Origin: an uncultured Lachnospiraceae bacterium
Lineage (GTDB): Bacteria > Bacillota > Clostridia > Lachnospirales > Lachnospiraceae
Direction: 5' to 3'
Assembly: GCA_946626215.1 (NCBI GenBank)
Contig: CAMOUD010000008.1
Location: forward strand, 1-38,507
Length of the DNA stretch: 38,507 bases
The translations under genes and the position numbers were made by a program. The notes below the pieces were generated by a model. It saw only the letters and a program-made list of their open reading frames with translations, was not told the DNA's origin and did no database searches. Below, in pieces: positions 275 to 7,244 of the stretch (its first letter is position 1; every line of letters begins with the position of its first letter).

Positions 275-293
275 ATAATTGTGTAACAATTAT
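275..293. promoter_or_regulatory. 19-bp palindrome in the AT-rich leader of the transglutaminase-like gene
   Basis: The arms ataattgt and acaattat are exact reverse complements around a GTA centre. The site lies 72 bases before the start at 365, in the only AT-rich stretch of this intergenic region (about 225-300), which should hold the promoter. No convincing -35/-10 pair could be picked. An operator overlapping the promoter is the simplest reading; this is inference. Confidence 0.4.
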
Positions 294-302
294 CGATTTT
301 TG

Positions 303-350
303 GCCCGGAGAGGAGATTCCGGGCGGATTCGGCAGATCCCTGCGCTGCCG
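303..350 (+). promoter_or_regulatory. two consecutive hairpins in the 5' leader
   Basis: Hairpin 1 pairs gcccgga (303-309) with tccgggc (318-324), and its loop holds a GAGGAG purine run. Hairpin 2 pairs cggcag (330-335) with ctgccg (345-350). The ribosome binding site ggagagag begins at 351, immediately after hairpin 2. Neither hairpin has a T tract. They may stabilise the transcript or control access to the ribosome binding site. Confidence 0.4.
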
Positions 351-364
351 GGAGAGAGAAATAT

Positions 365-2764
365 ATGAAAGCACTTGCCATGAGACTGACTGCCCTCTGC
401 CTGGCCGGCCTGCTTGCCCTGACGCCGGCAGTTCAGGCCTTCGCGGCCCAGGAAGATACAGAGGAAGCCGGGGAGGATATCCTGACCGGGGAAACAGAGC
501 CCGCCGGGGAACTGGACCTGGATGGGCCCCCCGAAGAAGAAGAAGACTGTTATGACGACCAGGGCCTGCTTCTGGAGGCTCTGGAAGAGGAAGAGGCCGC
601 GGCCGGAGAAACGGCCGGAGAGGTGACGGAGGAGGCTCCTGAGGCCTCTGAGGAGGCGCCTGAGGCCCTTCCGGAGGAAGAGGAGGCCCGGGAGGAAGTC
701 CCCGAAGAGGCCCCCTCCGGAGAGATCCTCCTGGAGGACGAGGTCCTGGAGGAAGCGGCCGATGAGGCCATCCTTCCCAGGCAGAACGCTTCCTCGGATG
801 AGCTCTTCGAGCTCTATTTCGCCAGAGAGATGGACCAGTCCCTGGGCATTGCCGCCAGCCTTTCCCCTGCCAGGATGCAGTCTGTATCCCTGCGGGGCCG
901 CCAGGCCCTGAATGAGACCCTGCGGGGCCTCTATGACCAGATCGCGCCGGCCATCCGGGACATCGCGGCGGGCAATGTCACCGATACCAGGATCCCCTGC
1001 TCCTTCAGCGTGACCTATACCGTGGAGGAACTTTCCGCCTATACGGACACGGACCTTTCCCAGGTGGACGCGGCCGCCGCTTCGGAGGCGTCTGCCCTGA
1101 TCAAGCAGCTGGCCGGCTACAATACGGGAAGCCTGAAGCTCCTGACCAGCGCTCTCAAGGCGGATATGCCCTACGACCTCTACTGGGCCGCCACCACCCT
1201 GAGTTTTTCCCTGGGCACGGCCAGGACCACCAGAAAGACCCAGACCGCGGACGGGGAGAGAAAGGCGGTCTCCTATACCTTTGAGATCACCGGCCCCTTC
1301 TCCCTCCAGGTATCCAAAGACTACAGGCCGGAGGGAGACCCCGGCACGGAAGAAACGGACGCGTCCGGACAGGCCGTCATCCGCTATTACAGGACCGATC
1401 CCGAAAAGACCGGGGCGGCGGCTGCCACCACGGCGGCGGCCAGGGAGATCGCGGAAAAATACGCCTCTCTTCCGGACCTGGACAAGCTCCGCGCCTATGC
1501 CGAAGAGATCGTGAACCTGGTCTCCTACAATACGGAGGTCTCCGGCTGGTCCGGCGACCAGGCGGCCACGGACTACGGCGATCCCTGGCAGCTGATCTAT
1601 GTCTTTGACGGCGACCCTGCCACCAACGTGGTCTGCGAGGGCTACGCCAAGGCCTTCAAGTACCTCTGCGACCTGTCCTCCTTTGAAGACAGCGCCCTGC
1701 AGGCGGCCACGGTCATGGGCTCGCTGAAGGGAGTCAACCACATGTGGAACCAGGTGGAGACCTCCAAAGGCAATTTCCTGGTGGACCTGACCAACGACGA
1801 CCTGGACGCCGGGGCCGGCGCTGACCTTGGCGGGCGTCTTTTCCTGGTGGGAGACCGGGACGTGACCCCGGATACGGCCTGGAAGGGCAGCCCTGACGCC
1901 GGCTATACCGTGACCACGCCGGACAAGGCCCTGGCCTACTCCTATGACGACGACTGCCGGTCCATCTATTCCGAGGCCTTCCTGACCATCGGCCCCTTCG
2001 ACCTGGTCCATGAGGATACGGACGAAGACGGCCTCTGCGACGCCTGCGGCCATGTCAGGGTGACAGGCGGGGACAAGTCCGCCTGCGCCTTCCCCTTTGA
2101 AGACACGCCCGACGCGGGCGGGGACGGCAGGGTCTCCATCCGGGACCTGGAGGGGAGGATCCTCTATCTGGGCCTGGCCGGAACGGACGCGGCCCTTTTT
2201 GACAACGAGAACTATCCCCATACCCTGTTCTGCCAGGATCTGGACGGAGAAAAGGTGACCTATCTCTTCGCCGGCTGGTATGAAGAGGCGGACGGGAACA
2301 TGGTCCCCATGACCTCTCTTCCGGACGGGACAGAGACGGCCTACGCGGCCTTCGCGGACGCGGGGATCCTGTCCGTCAGGCTCCAGCTCATATACGGGGC
2401 GGACCTGACCAGCGAGAAGACCAGCATCCGGTTCCTGTCCACGGTGGACTCCCTCCACTATCAGGCGGCCGGCTTTGCCTTCACCATTGACAGGGACGGA
2501 GAGGTGACGGAAAAGGACGCGAGCTCGGCCACCGTATACGCCTCTCTCCAGGGAAGGACGGATGAAGGGAAGAAGACCTACGCGCCTGACCTCTTCAGTC
2601 CTGCCTCGGCCTATTTCTTTGCCTTTGTCCTCAGGGACATCCCGGAGGAAGACTACAACACATCCGTCACCGTGGTCCCCTACTGGGTAACGGAGGACGG
2701 GACCAGGGTCGAGGGCGCTTCCAGGACCCTGACGCCGGCCGAATTTCTGGCCCGGAATGACTGA
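365..2764 (+). CDS. secreted protein with acidic stalk and transglutaminase-like domain
   Basis: This 799-residue exported protein has a signal peptide at about 1-28 (basic start, hydrophobic core, ending AFAA). A Glu/Pro/Ala-rich low-complexity stalk follows at about 29-135, then a helical region. The transglutaminase-like core has a Cys-His-Asp triad visible as Cys424 (VCEGYA), His459 (NHMWN) and Asp474 (VDLTND). In this fold the triad serves peptide or isopeptide cleavage or transfer; Clostridial surface versions are mostly of unknown substrate. A calcium-loop-like motif (DTDEDGLCDACG) follows at about 557-568, and beta-rich domains lie at the C-terminus. No LPXTG anchor is visible. The start is set by ggagagag at 351-358. 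Only 12 bases separate it from the PqqD-like gene, so it is probably the first gene of that operon. The acidic stalk recurs in three other secreted proteins of this window. Confidence 0.85.
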   Translation: MKALAMRLTALCLAGLLALTPAVQAFAAQEDTEEAGEDILTGETEPAGELDLDGPPEEEEDCYDDQGLLLEALEEEEAAAGETAGEVTEEAPEASEEAPEALPEEEEAREEVPEEAPSGEILLEDEVLEEAADEAILPRQNASSDELFELYFAREMDQSLGIAASLSPARMQSVSLRGRQALNETLRGLYDQIAPAIRDIAAGNVTDTRIPCSFSVTYTVEELSAYTDTDLSQVDAAAASEASALIKQLAGYNTGSLKLLTSALKADMPYDLYWAATTLSFSLGTARTTRKTQTADGERKAVSYTFEITGPFSLQVSKDYRPEGDPGTEETDASGQAVIRYYRTDPEKTGAAAATTAAAREIAEKYASLPDLDKLRAYAEEIVNLVSYNTEVSGWSGDQAATDYGDPWQLIYVFDGDPATNVVCEGYAKAFKYLCDLSSFEDSALQAATVMGSLKGVNHMWNQVETSKGNFLVDLTNDDLDAGAGADLGGRLFLVGDRDVTPDTAWKGSPDAGYTVTTPDKALAYSYDDDCRSIYSEAFLTIGPFDLVHEDTDEDGLCDACGHVRVTGGDKSACAFPFEDTPDAGGDGRVSIRDLEGRILYLGLAGTDAALFDNENYPHTLFCQDLDGEKVTYLFAGWYEEADGNMVPMTSLPDGTETAYAAFADAGILSVRLQLIYGADLTSEKTSIRFLSTVDSLHYQAAGFAFTIDRDGEVTEKDASSATVYASLQGRTDEGKKTYAPDLFSPASAYFFAFVLRDIPEEDYNTSVTVVPYWVTEDGTRVEGASRTLTPAEFLARND

Positions 2765-2776
2765 GCGGGAGCGGAG

Positions 2777-3049
2777 ATGAAACTGAAATATACATTTGTC
2801 CTCCAGCGGGTGGGAAAGGATACCATCGCGGCGGCAGTGGGAGAGGACGCCGGGGCCTACCCCAGCGTCATCAGACTGAACGCCACCGGGGCCAGGATCT
2901 TTGCCCTGGCTATGGAGGGCATGGACAAGGAAGAGATCGCCCGGGCCCTGGCCCGGGAGTACGGGATCAGCGAAAAGGAGGCCCTGGAGGCCGCGGACCG
3001 GTTCGAAGAGAGGATGCGGCAGGCGGGGATCCTGGAGGAAGAAGGATGA
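2777..3049 (+). CDS. PqqD-family protein (peptide-recognition domain)
   Basis: This 90-residue protein has the PqqD pattern: a beta-rich N-terminus, a RLNATGARIFAL segment matching the family 'LN.tg..iw.l' core, and a helical C-terminal half with an EEIARALAREYGIS-type winged-helix motif. PqqD domains bind the leader of a ribosomally made peptide and present it to modifying enzymes; they are known from PQQ, lasso-peptide and sactipeptide pathways. The start follows a GGGAG site at 2767-2771. The stop overlaps the start of a tiny gene (ATGA at 3046-3049), which indicates translational coupling. No radical SAM or cyclase gene adjoins it, so the modification is unknown. Confidence 0.85.
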   Translation: MKLKYTFVLQRVGKDTIAAAVGEDAGAYPSVIRLNATGARIFALAMEGMDKEEIARALAREYGISEKEALEAADRFEERMRQAGILEEEG

Positions 3050-3201
3050 TGGAAGAAAAGAAGAAAAAAGGACCCGGCGTTCCCTTTCCCGGCCTGTTCG
3101 AGGAGCCTGTTCTCCAGGTCGTGGAACTGGAAGTGGTGGATACCCTGACGGCGAGCCCTGAGGAAACAGACGGATATGACTGGGGAAAGATCGTTGGATA
3201 A
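3046..3201 (+). CDS. small peptide, candidate modified-peptide precursor
   Basis: This is a 51-residue reading frame (50 if ATG 3049 is used) lying entirely between the PqqD-like gene and the HPrK-like gene and overlapping both. A GGAGG site at 3034-3038 sits 7 bases before ATG 3046. The product starts with a Lys-rich run, continues through PFPGLFEEPVLQVVELEVVD and TLTASPEE, and ends DWGKIVG. From memory, EEPxLxVVELEVxDTLTxS resembles the conserved N-terminal part of small Clostridial peptides encoded beside PqqD/kinase genes, with a variable Asp/Gly/Trp tail. It has no Cys and no signal peptide. A precursor role is inferred from size, position and pattern; a short non-precursor protein remains possible. 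Confidence 0.6.
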   Translation: MMEEKKKKGPGVPFPGLFEEPVLQVVELEVVDTLTASPEETDGYDWGKIVG

Positions 3202-3946
3202 GACTGAGCAGGAGAGCTTCCTGGTCAGGATCGCCGGCGTGACCCTCCTGGTCCGGCCGGCCTGTCCGGGCCTTCGTCCCTATTTCCGGGACTTTGAGAC
3301 AGAAGAAGGCGAGCCTGCCTTTACGGCCGCTTCCGTGCCGGAAAGGCTGCGGAGGCTGGAAAAGAGCATCCGGCAGGCGGGAGACCCCCTGCCCTCTCCC
3401 AGGCAGATGGAGCTCCTGGGCCTCCATGAGTCCATCACGGAGGGGCTGCTGGCCAGGGACATCCTTCTGATGCACGGGTCCGCCCTGGCCGTGGACGGCA
3501 GGGCCTGTATCTTTTCGGCCCCTTCCGGGACCGGCAAGTCTACCCACGCCCGCCTGGTCCGGGAGCTTCTGGGAGACCGGGTCCTGATGATCAATGACGA
3601 CAAGCCCTATCTGCGCTTTGATCCGGAGGAGATCATGGTCTGCGGCAGCCCCTGGATGGGCAAGCACCGGCTGGGAGCCCCTGTGGAAAGGCCCCTGACC
3701 GGCCTGGTCTTCCTGACCCGGGGAAAGACCGACTCCATCCGGCCCCTGGAGCCCCAGGAGGAGCTGCCCCTTCTCCTGACCCAGCTCTACCGGCCCCGGG
3801 AGGCGGAGCTCATGCAGAGGAGCCTGGTCCTGATCGACCGGTTGGTCCGGGAGATCCCCATGTACCGGATGGCCTGCACCATGGAGCCTGACGCCCCCCG
3901 CCTGTCCATGGAGACCCTCTTCGGGCCGGGGACCTGTCCTTCGTGA
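3176..3946 (+). CDS. HPr-kinase/PEP-carboxykinase-like P-loop ATPase of a peptide cassette
   Basis: This 256-residue cytoplasmic protein has a Walker A loop SAPSGTGKSTHARL at about 116-129 (after MHGSALAVDG), an acidic NDDKP motif at about 141-145 and a GSPWMGKHR segment at about 160-168. These are the HPr-kinase-like signatures found in stand-alone kinases of lasso and other PqqD-linked peptide clusters. It lacks the N-terminal domain of true HprK, so it is unlikely to phosphorylate HPr. It overlaps the 51-residue peptide gene by 26 bases. The ATG at 3176 has only a distant TGAGGA (3159-3164), and TTG 3194 after GGGGAAAG is an alternative start. A role in phosphorylating the peptide is inferred from context. 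Confidence 0.8.
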   Translation: MTGERSLDKTEQESFLVRIAGVTLLVRPACPGLRPYFRDFETEEGEPAFTAASVPERLRRLEKSIRQAGDPLPSPRQMELLGLHESITEGLLARDILLMHGSALAVDGRACIFSAPSGTGKSTHARLVRELLGDRVLMINDDKPYLRFDPEEIMVCGSPWMGKHRLGAPVERPLTGLVFLTRGKTDSIRPLEPQEELPLLLTQLYRPREAELMQRSLVLIDRLVREIPMYRMACTMEPDAPRLSMETLFGPGTCPS

Positions 3947-3954
3947 AATCGCTT

Positions 3955-3983
3955 TTGCCAAGCCGGCGGCGATACAGTATACT
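3955..3983 (+). promoter_or_regulatory. sigma-70-type promoter of the flavodiiron gene
   Basis: TTGCCA (3955-3960), a 17-base spacer and TATACT (3978-3983) make a near-consensus housekeeping promoter just after the stop of the HPrK-like gene. It separates the flavodiiron gene transcriptionally from the peptide cassette and places the transcript start near 3990. Confidence 0.75.
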
Positions 3984-4038
3984 GGATATGGTTCCAATAC
4001 AGACAGAAGACTTCTGCCGTGAAAAAAAGGAGGATATT

Positions 4039-5338: not shown

Positions 5339-5415
5339 GGCTCCGAATCATCACTATGGGCCTCTGTCGGCTTCTGAAAGCCTTTTCCGGCCCTGAAGAA
5401 ATGTGAGGAATGAGC

Positions 5416-6375
5416 ATGATGAGAAGAGCACAGAATCGTTTTGGAAGGATCAGAACCCTGGTCCTGGCCCTTTTCCTGGTCCTGGGCCTCCTGACCGGAC
5501 CCTGCAGGGCCATGGCCTATGGGGAAGTGGAAACAGACAAAAAGGCGCAGCTGACCCTGAATTACGAGGTCCCCGGAGCCGAGTTCCGCCTTTACAAGGT
5601 CATGTCCATCGCTTCCAACGGGGAGCTGACGGTCCTTGAGCCCTATGCCAGCCAGGATGTGGTCCTGGAAGGCCTGGACGAGAAGGGCTGGAGCGACGCT
5701 GCCGGCACCTTGTACGCCATGCTGCCCCAGATGGGCGCGGAGGCGGACTATACCGGTGTGACGGACCAGGAGGGAAAGGCTGTCCTGACAGATCTGGAGG
5801 TCGGCCTCTACCTGGTGGCCGGCGAAGAGATGACTGTGGGCAGCACGACCTACCTGCCGGCTCCCTTCTTTACCTGCCTGCCCGGCAGTGAGGACGGAGA
5901 CACATGGATCTATGAGGTGACTGCGGACGTCAAATATGTCAAATGGGACGTTCCGCCGGAGGAGAGAGAATTCTCCGTCTGCAAGAAGTGGAAGAACGAT
6001 TCCGCTTCCTCCAGACCGGTCTCTGTGGATGTGGAGATCTACAGGGACGGGGTCCTGAAGGAGACCGTCACCCTGAATAAGGACAACAACTGGCGCTACA
6101 GCTGGAAGGCTGAGAATGACGGCGCTGCCTGGACGGCGGCTGAGAAGAAGGTCCCGGCCGGCTATAAGGTGACCATCGCCCCCTGGAATGAAAAGGACGG
6201 GATCGTGATCACCAATACCAGGAATACCACACCTCCCGGACCCGGCAGGCGGGTACCGCCCGGCAAGACCAGGACCGGCGACAGCGCGTCCATCCTGCTG
6301 CCCCTTCTGGGCCTGGCCTGCGGAGGCATCGGCCTGATCCTCCTCGGAATGAAGCTGAGGAGCAGCAGAAAATAA
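5416..6375 (+). CDS. pilin-like surface protein with Cna-B domain and atypical sorting signal
   Basis: This is a 319-residue exported protein. A signal peptide covers about 1-35 (basic start, LVLALFLVLGLL core). A pilin/SpaA-like beta domain follows (about 40-180; YEVPGAEFRLYKV, and GKAVLTDLEVGLYLV typical of Cna-B-like folds). A clear Cna-B domain spans about 190-275 (EFSVCKKWKND through VPAGYKV to ITNT). The C-terminus has a wall-anchoring layout: a Pro-rich spacer, TRTGD, a hydrophobic helix (about 293-314) and a basic tail KLRSSRK. The usual LPXTG is replaced by KTRTGD. A start at ATG 5410 would sit on the GAGGAA site (5405-5410), so 5416 or 5419 is preferred. A sortase homologue follows, but it lacks catalytic residues. 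Confidence 0.85.
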   Translation: MMRRAQNRFGRIRTLVLALFLVLGLLTGPCRAMAYGEVETDKKAQLTLNYEVPGAEFRLYKVMSIASNGELTVLEPYASQDVVLEGLDEKGWSDAAGTLYAMLPQMGAEADYTGVTDQEGKAVLTDLEVGLYLVAGEEMTVGSTTYLPAPFFTCLPGSEDGDTWIYEVTADVKYVKWDVPPEEREFSVCKKWKNDSASSRPVSVDVEIYRDGVLKETVTLNKDNNWRYSWKAENDGAAWTAAEKKVPAGYKVTIAPWNEKDGIVITNTRNTTPPGPGRRVPPGKTRTGDSASILLPLLGLACGGIGLILLGMKLRSSRK

Positions 6376-6406
6376 GAAATACGGGCGCCGCGGGATGCGG
6401 GCGTCA

Positions 6407-6437
6407 GGGGGAGACCGGAGGGCCTCCCCCTTTTTTT
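6407..6437 (+). terminator. Rho-independent terminator after the Cna-B gene
   Basis: gggggag (6407-6413) pairs with ctccccc (6424-6430), followed by seven T (6431-6437). It lies between the surface-protein gene and the sortase homologue, so the latter depends on read-through or on an unseen promoter. Confidence 0.85.
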
Positions 6438-6512
6438 CCTGTTCATGCCGGTTCCCCGGCCCGGCAGCGGGAAGGCGCCGGGGCGGCTTTGACAGAAAGA
6501 GAGAGGTAGACG

Positions 6513-7244
6513 ATGCTGAAAAAGAGAATGGGAGCCCTGCTGGCCCTGCTGGGCTTTGTCGTGGTCCTGGCAGCCGGAGCCTACGGAGGAAGGGTCTGGC
6601 AGAGAACGAGGACCATCCTCACCAGGAATGAGCGCCTGGCCGGCCTGACCCTGGAGGCCATGCCTGAAGAGATCCGGGAGGACTGGCCGGAGGAGGACGC
6701 CTTTGTGGGCGAGGCAGTCACGCCGGGCCTGTCCGGAGGCGATGCCCTGCCTGTGAACCGGGAGGGAGAGGAAGAAGAGGAGAAAAAGAACGAACTGGTA
6801 AAAGCCTCGGACCTCCTGCCGGATTTCCGTACCCTGGACCTGGAGGGGGAGCGTGTGATCGGCCTTCTGGAGGTCCCCTCCCGGAGCCTTTCCCTGGTCC
6901 TGACCGGCTCTTCCGCCGGCTCAGAGGATCTTGTCTCCCTGACCGATGACCTGCCTGACCCTTCGATCCCCTTTACCGTCACAGGGCCCAGGGCCCTTCT
7001 GGGCAGCCTTTCCTCCGCCGGGATCGGAGACAGGGTCTTTTTCACGGATCTGGAAGGGAGGCGCTATTCCTACGCCATTGAGGGGATCGTGATCTCCGAT
7101 GCCGGCACGGAGCCCTTTGTCTCCGAAGAGACCGGCCGGGGCCGGGCCATGGAAGCCCTGATCCTGACCTACCAGGCCGTGGGGCGGCAGAGGGTCCTGA
7201 TCTCCTGCGGCCGGATCCGGGACGGGGCCGCTGAAACGGATTAG
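6513..7244 (+). CDS. sortase-fold protein lacking catalytic His and Cys (pseudosortase)
   Basis: This 243-residue protein has one N-terminal membrane helix (about 7-26), a charged Glu/Lys-rich linker (about 80-95) and a sortase-like beta-barrel. The alignment to class B/C sortases is my own by eye: ERVIGLLEVPSRSLSLVL matches the conserved first strand, and FTVTGPRALLG occupies the place of the 'TGHRG' catalytic-His motif, with Pro159 instead of His. ALILTYQAVGRQRVLI occupies the place of the 'LvTCtp...R' Cys/Arg segment, with Thr219/Tyr220 where Cys is expected; an Arg (Arg227) remains. The only Cys is 232, near the end and out of register. If the alignment holds, it cannot perform transpeptidation. 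It lies directly after a Cna-B protein with a non-standard sorting signal. A weak site gagagg at 6500-6505 supports the start. Confidence 0.7.
   Translation: MLKKRMGALLALLGFVVVLAAGAYGGRVWQRTRTILTRNERLAGLTLEAMPEEIREDWPEEDAFVGEAVTPGLSGGDALPVNREGEEEEEKKNELVKASDLLPDFRTLDLEGERVIGLLEVPSRSLSLVLTGSSAGSEDLVSLTDDLPDPSIPFTVTGPRALLGSLSSAGIGDRVFFTDLEGRRYSYAIEGIVISDAGTEPFVSEETGRGRAMEALILTYQAVGRQRVLISCGRIRDGAAETD

Follow-up and report, generated by a model that had tools for sequence, protein, structure and literature searches.

In the Bradymonas bsf lasso cluster, the HPrK-like kinase BsfK phosphorylates Ser3 of the BsfA core, and the PqqD-like protein BsfB1 speeds the reaction (PMC10368454). The bsf leaders carry Y(−17), P(−14), L(−12) and I(−2), and the cluster itself brings together a lasso cyclase, a B2 protease, an ABC transporter and a nucleotidyltransferase (PMC10368454). 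In the case of paeninodin and pseudomycoidin, an HPr-kinase homologue phosphorylates the core and a nucleotidyltransferase adds hexose to the phosphate; the sugar on the phosphate of pseudomycoidin was reported in vivo (PMC8498205). A survey of rumen lasso peptides found an HPr kinase in ~58%, PqqD in ~46% and an uncharacterised nucleotidyltransferase in ~30% of the genomes it analysed; its sections on these genes deal with lasso precursors and cyclases, and the peptide family presented below is not described in them (PMC7533575).

Here we describe a cassette that shares with the bsf cluster an HPrK-like kinase whose motif agrees at seven of eight residues, a discrete PqqD protein, a YxxPxL leader and a Ser at core position +3 (PMC10368454). 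Unlike bsf, it has no cyclase, and the protease of its relatives is signal-peptidase-like. Its conserved Ser lies near the leader boundary, whereas paeninodin and pseudomycoidin are modified at the C-terminal Ser of the lasso (PMC8498205). From the results presented here, we consider it rather likely that the product of the cassette is a ribosomal peptide that is phosphorylated, perhaps decorated further, and not cyclised to a lasso. Among the matches listed from the open-access PMC literature there was no description of such a cassette, nor did the motif strings VYGPP, DVITTS, DIITTS or EDVITTSG occur; subscription papers and preprints fall mostly outside this collection, so that the result is no proof of novelty.

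The cassette lies in a stretch of 38,507 nucleotides from an uncultured Lachnospiraceae bacterium, which we refer to as the window. A sequence-only reading had pointed out a PqqD-like protein, a 51-residue ORF and an HPrK-like ATPase, and all three are present where it placed them. The features are as follows.

365..2764, plus strand: apparently secreted protein, 799 aa; its middle part (residues 352-505) is transglutaminase-like
2420..2734, plus strand: C-terminal domain ‘type A’ of the 799-aa protein, residues 686-790 (profile built here)
2777..3049, plus strand: PqqD-like RiPP recognition element, 90 aa (PF05402, structure model)
3034..3038, plus strand: Shine-Dalgarno sequence GGAGG, 7 nt ahead of the peptide ATG at 3046 (from the sequence)
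3046..3201, plus strand: precursor peptide, 51 residues (coding statistics, peptide-family profiles)
3097..3147, plus strand: leader recognition part, F18 to L34 of the peptide (lasso register)
3148..3198, plus strand: predicted core, T35 to G51, TASPEETDGYDWGKIVG (from the register)
3154..3156, plus strand: AGC codon of Ser37, core +3, predicted phosphorylation site (conservation and the BsfA Ser3 precedent)
3176..3946, plus strand: HPrK-like kinase, 256 aa (relatives, motif, fold); the start could be TTG 3194
3518..3544, plus strand: kinase P-loop APSGTGKST, residues 115-123 (alignment of 50 sequences)

The peptide ORF overlaps the PqqD gene by 4 nt (3046-3049) and the kinase gene by 26 nt if the latter starts at ATG 3176. 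Since the first 10 residues of the kinase model are of low confidence (mean pLDDT 56), TTG 3194 is possible as an alternative start. Only 12 nt separate the end of the gene for the secreted-like protein from the PqqD gene.

The PqqD protein scores 43.1 bits against PF05402, for which the gathering cut-off is 23.4. Its structure model (pLDDT 94.4) contains strands at residues 7-12, 15-20 and 31-34 and helices at 36-46, 51-62 and 66-83, that is, the three strands followed by three helices by which the RiPP recognition element is defined (PMC12710340), with an extra short helix (24-27) before the third strand. The best fold match in the PDB is TbiB1 with its leader peptide (5v1u; TM 0.76, E 7.3e-5), and among solved chains the PqqD profile finds TbiB1 at 1.6e-7 and TfuB1 at 4.1e-5. 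In modelled fold and in profile, the window PqqD resembles the lasso B1 proteins.

A Pfam scan of the kinase gave no hit above the cut-off, so the protein was placed by its relatives, its motif and its fold. The model (pLDDT 94.1) shows the P-loop fold common to PEPCK and HprK/P. The nearest chains by fold are PEPCKs; HprK/P chains reach a TM score of only 0.26-0.33 (query-normalised) and are absent among the 50 rows of a second structural alignment. Within the P-loop, A115, S117, G120, K121, S122 and T123 are invariant in 50 sequences, the window kinase included, and G118 and T119 are conserved in at least 90%. The residues listed for BsfK, H148, G163, G166, G168, K169, S170, D186 and D187 (PMC10368454), map to H100, A115, G118, G120, K121, S122, D141 and D142, seven of the eight being identical, and the spacing from H to K is 21 in both proteins. 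The exception is the first P-loop Gly of BsfK, which is replaced by the invariant Ala115; all eight equivalent positions are invariant in the 50 sequences save G118.

Several named systems were considered for this kinase. HPr(Ser) kinase/phosphatase proper was rejected (TIGR00679, 10.8 against a cut-off of 240 bits). The HPr-rel-A system is like the cassette in having an HprK-related kinase and a PqqD-like chaperone; it was also set aside, as both of its models score under their curated cut-offs (TIGR04352, 19.1 against 200 bits; TIGR04353, 22.2 against 35 bits). The kinase family bears a weak likeness to ScmC of SynChlorMet (TIGR04249), the relative in L200 scoring 29.5 bits over residues 80-237 against a cut-off of 125; unlike SynChlorMet, no radical SAM pair stands beside the window cassette.

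In order to judge the coding status of the peptide, we scored the part that is free of overlap (3052-3174). Its own frame gives 0.66 bits per codon, a value attained by only six of 1675 stretches taken from the other five frames of window genes; 26 of 335 true-frame stretches score as low or lower. Small ORFs around some kinase relatives align with the window peptide without gaps, with the consensus Y/F-x-x-P-x-(M/L)-(E/D/Q)-(V/I)-x-x-(F/L)-x-x-x-D-x-(I/L)-T-x-S, and the leader motif of the family is YxxPxME(V/I)(V/I)xFxxxD(V/I)I, then TxS. When a 25-row profile lacking the window peptide was run against the whole 2.6-Mb genome, this peptide was the sole match at E≤10, although a weak one (E 1.62, 10.7 bits). 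With a 6-seed profile, likewise built without it, the ORF ranked first after 12 recognised family members (E 0.34, 5920 ORFs); a 9-row profile did not match it at E≤10. From the E value of 1.62 and the failure of the 9-row profile, we regard the window peptide as a divergent member, with F for Y, T at −2 and a long N-terminus as its departures from the family, and the assignment therefore stands on motif, register and position together. Neither Pfam (window peptide and six relatives scanned) nor NCBIfam (window peptide and seven relatives) gave a match.

We applied the lasso numbering of PMC10368454 to the peptides of loci below class level and placed 72 of 74. Position −17 is Y in 65 and F in 7 of the 72, position −14 is P in 44, and position −2 is V or I in 65. 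At core +3, 58 peptides have Ser; two of the other 14 have Thr. The window peptide reads F18(−17), P21(−14), L23(−12), D(−3), T33(−2), L34(−1) and Ser37(+3), and thus has the lasso-type YxxPxL leader in the form F-EE-P-V-L, F replacing Y, with T33 at −2, where lasso leaders carry T or I.

The peptide is no singular case: the family occurs in 38 of 391 genomes of the class (25-row profile, E≤1e-3). A genome can have up to 19 matches, often scattered, as in G523 (19) and G326 (10). In the 25-row search that included the window's genome, eight of the matches at E≤10 reached E<1e-3 (in G253, G294, G307 and G276) and were used; weaker ones were left out, the window's own excepted. Within the family Lachnospiraceae, the 9-row profile finds peptides in 13 of 250 genomes at E≤1e-3, seven of these 13 having supplied rows of the profile, and in 22 at E≤0.1; kinase relatives occur in 60 of the 250 genomes, and in 9 of 62 at the level of the genus, the window's own genome included.

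The peptide profiles drew their seeds from loci that had been retrieved through the kinase, and co-occurrence was for this reason also counted without the seed genomes. In the class, the kinase (E≤1e-20) is present in 36 of 37 peptide genomes, the exception being G567, against a background of 108/390; in the family the figures are 6/6 against 53/243 and in the genus 2/2 against 7/60. With the seeds kept, they are 37/38, 13/13 and 4/4, respectively. The genomes are related, so that p-values for co-occurrence do not refer to independent events. Peptides are present in 16 families of the class sample, and the kinase occurs in all 16.

On the sequence-only reading, its proposal would fail if relatives that keep the PqqD and kinase genes had no conserved ORF at this position, or if the small frame had a dN/dS near 1. 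For the peptide family neither applies: next to PqqD and kinase genes the leader is kept, while the tails vary. Seven pairs of relatives give pN/pS ratios between 0 and 0.38, and an eighth pair is without changes; the leader is under purifying selection in relatives. A close orthologue of the window peptide was looked for and none was found, and these values refer to the relatives only. In three loci of the same genus (L158, L160 and L161), the same leader precedes Cys-containing tails and radical SAM proteins adjoin; the neighbour in L158 (4904-6373) scores 69.3 bits against PF04055, and those in L160 and L161 were judged by eye. One leader type thus seemingly serves different maturation enzymes, and the kind of modification cannot be read from the leader alone.

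The surroundings of the kinase were surveyed in a set of 80 named loci retrieved through it, some of which repeat genomes (L266 and L069 share one peptide). A PqqD gene lies within 4 kb on the same strand in 61 loci, and not so in 19, some of them cut by contig ends. By the same measure, 54 loci have a signal-peptidase-like protease and 27 have an ABC protein; with the limit set at 5 kb, 27 have a PF14907-like nucleotidyltransferase. There are 33 peptides at E<0.01, spread over 26 of the loci, and 31 of them are on the kinase strand; in 20 of the 25 loci with a same-strand peptide the distance to the kinase is ≤800 bp. The remaining 54 loci show no peptide at E<0.01, some of them ending at contig ends. 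In four of the 80 (L195, L197, L200 and L234) the gene order is peptide, HPrK, PqqD, protease, ABC exporter, nucleotidyltransferase; in L195, L200 and L234 a gene for a stalk-like protein (see below) separates the peptide from the kinase. L216, L236 and L242 contain every component in a different order. The assignments were confirmed for PF14907 in L048 (159.6 bits) and for the ABC domains in L052. The relatives' protease has a weak likeness to archaeal-type signal peptidase I (29.7 bits against a cut-off of 51.85).

These data support the proposal that a PqqD recognition protein and an HPrK-like kinase accompany a RiPP-like precursor, with no adjoining radical SAM enzyme or cyclase. They do not sustain the further idea that the set is isolated and exporterless by design, as the loci of relatives and contig C29 of the same genome carry ABC exporters. 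On C29 (G000; L135:16924-19292), a second PqqD (39.4 bits) lies at the contig end, and with it are a protease (142 bits) and an ABC exporter (581 bits; profiles made here) of the same kinds as in the relatives' cassettes. No kinase was found on C29; one may lie beyond the contig end. Beside the window cassette there is no protease, exporter or nucleotidyltransferase, and C29 would provide the first two only if it acts in trans, in which case its exporter may serve the window peptide.

The lasso-like leader register and PqqD, together with an Asp at core +8, raise the alternative that the locus is a lasso peptide system relying on a cyclase elsewhere in the genome. PF00733, the Asn-synthetase-like cyclase, has no match on contig C8. 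There are five Asn_synthase matches elsewhere in the genome (C30, C28, C145 and C37; the two on C30 share a 532-residue frame), a further point in favour; the predicted core, on the other hand, begins with Thr. Among 20 cassette genomes, all incomplete MAGs and counted genome-wide, irrespective of nearness to the cassette in the other 13, seven have only short partial Asn_synthase matches (<100 of 354 positions), so that the cassette is found where no lasso cyclase can be recognised. A lasso system proper was rejected on this and on the lack of a cyclase on the contig, and dependence on a distant cyclase appears very improbable. We infer that the cassette is RiPP-like and of the lasso-tailoring kind without cyclase, rather than a lasso system.

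If the cassette does make a phosphorylated peptide, its action could proceed as follows. The PqqD protein would bind the leader from F18-xx-P21-x-L23 to L34 in the way that lasso B1 proteins bind YxxPxL, as its fold and the leader motif suggest. The kinase, assisted by PqqD, would then phosphorylate Ser37 at core +3, a site predicted from the lasso register, the conservation of Ser and the BsfK precedent. To judge from the relatives' cassettes and contig C29, a signal-peptidase-like protease would cut off the leader and an ABC exporter would send out the acidic 17-residue core; where present, the PF14907 enzyme may add a sugar to the phosphate. Finally, and this is the weakest step, the exported core might act at the cell surface with the secreted protein encoded just upstream. 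Points that tell against this reading are the divergence of the window peptide, the 14 placed relatives without Ser at +3, the kinase loci that lack a peptide or a PqqD, the Ala in place of the first P-loop Gly and the low scores of the kinase with HPr kinase models. If the reading is correct, the reach of kinase tailoring would widen from lasso peptides to a large family of leader peptides in Clostridia of the gut and rumen, for which a definite site of modification is predicted.

The upstream secreted-like protein, on which the sequence-only reading was silent, as it was on the matched-tail stalks of relatives described below, has a signal-like N-terminus by eye and scores 40.8 bits with NCBIfam NF045980, far under the cut-off of 450. 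When it is compared with the lasso B2 protease, the upstream gene is transglutaminase-like yet apparently secreted, and the relatives' protein is signal-peptidase-like. The window protein, which stops 282 bp ahead of the peptide, ends in the type A domain, and this domain is common to other proteins near such peptides or kinases (profile of 12 proteins; the window protein, from which the profile was seeded, matches at E 2.4e-37). A protein with one of three C-terminal domains lies ≤500 bp from 44 of 100 peptides, on the same strand in 43 cases and upstream in 38 of these, often at 4-66 bp; the chance rate in the same loci is ~3% as a rough figure. The other 56 peptides, loci with possible contig or locus ends included, have no such protein within 500 bp. 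Many of the C-terminal-domain proteins inspected have signal-like N-termini by eye. The domains may occur elsewhere too, because the models were seeded from proteins beside peptides and only the fetched loci were scanned.

The 43 same-strand neighbours would also fit a peptide that is not secreted, namely an intracellular regulator or chaperone-like partner of the upstream secreted protein, switched by the kinase. In accordance with this, peptides exceed kinase matches in several genomes (19 against 2 in G523, 10 against 1 in G326). However, the cassettes of relatives hold a protease and an ABC exporter, and the leader-core layout and variable tails fit a product. We therefore think a regulatory role unlikely.

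Another regularity concerns ‘stalk-like’ proteins, which are small and have a hydrophobic anchor at the N-terminus and a linker of low complexity; the definition goes by composition and admits some false ones. Such a protein is encoded within 3 kb on the same strand for 41 of 100 distinct peptides. The tail of the stalk matches that of its own neighbour peptide with a mean score of 20.5, against 13.0 (sd 0.73) after permutation (0 of 5000 permutations reached this), and 11 of the 41 pairs score at least 24 where 1.66 are expected (maximum 6 in 2000 permutations); the other 30 fall under that level. Matched tails are DEDGWTVIIVKP and DEDGWTTIIVKP in L128, DEDELPWVP and EEDELPWIP in L251, and GDDTPIDPFE and GDDLPIDKFE in L156, which is of the same genus. 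In L133, a protein that is a lipoprotein by eye (502-990) repeats VYGPPE(W/Y)F five times, and a peptide ~6 kb on (6818-6961) has VYGPPEWF once in its tail. A tail match in L179 was above the chance estimate and was dropped, as the partner ORF looked spurious. We also observed that a stalk ending in (E/Q)LPFVP recurs across genomes (L200, L195, L176 and L051); in L176 and L051, these stalks adjoin peptides with differing tails.

For the window peptide, a search by its tail in genome and window frames found no stalk, and the best same-strand candidate within 3 kb is a pilin-like ORF with a score of 9. This bears on another possibility, that the locus is a relic: the peptide would be subject to drift, the kinase and PqqD would act on other peptides or have no role left, and an adjoining exporter, protease and stalk would have been lost. 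The divergence of the peptide (E 1.62), the lack of these adjoining partners and the presence of only one recognisable peptide in the genome (a 90% complete draft) are in keeping with decay. The three frames are nevertheless intact, overlapping and coding-like, the invariant kinase residues are retained, and C29 has a protease and an exporter; decay is on balance quite unlikely.

If, as we prefer, the peptide is phosphorylated and exported, a more specific and tentative possibility is a three-part surface system of no known kind, made up of a secreted C-terminal-domain protein, an anchored or lipoprotein stalk that copies the core, and a peptide phosphorylated by PqqD/HPrK and exported. In this view the shared tail would serve as a tag for docking; the stalk would hold a surface partner, perhaps the C-terminal domain itself, for which the modified peptide would compete or which it would lock. 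Since the peptide-stalk pairs of G007 carry different tags, one tailoring cassette could address many such proteins separately. A role at the surface, more than that of a classical antibiotic, is suggested by the matching tails and by the recurrent proximity to apparently secreted proteins; both also offer a route to the substrates of orphan PqqD and HPrK-like genes.

Two other features of the window were noted. At 5410-7244, a Cna_B pilin-like protein (PF05738, 48.9 bits) is followed by a 243-residue ORF that has no Pfam hit and is sortase-like by eye, lacking the usual Cys. On the minus strand, an antisense open frame of 1235 codons extends over 290-3997; it probably does no more than reflect the high GC content at third codon positions in the real genes.
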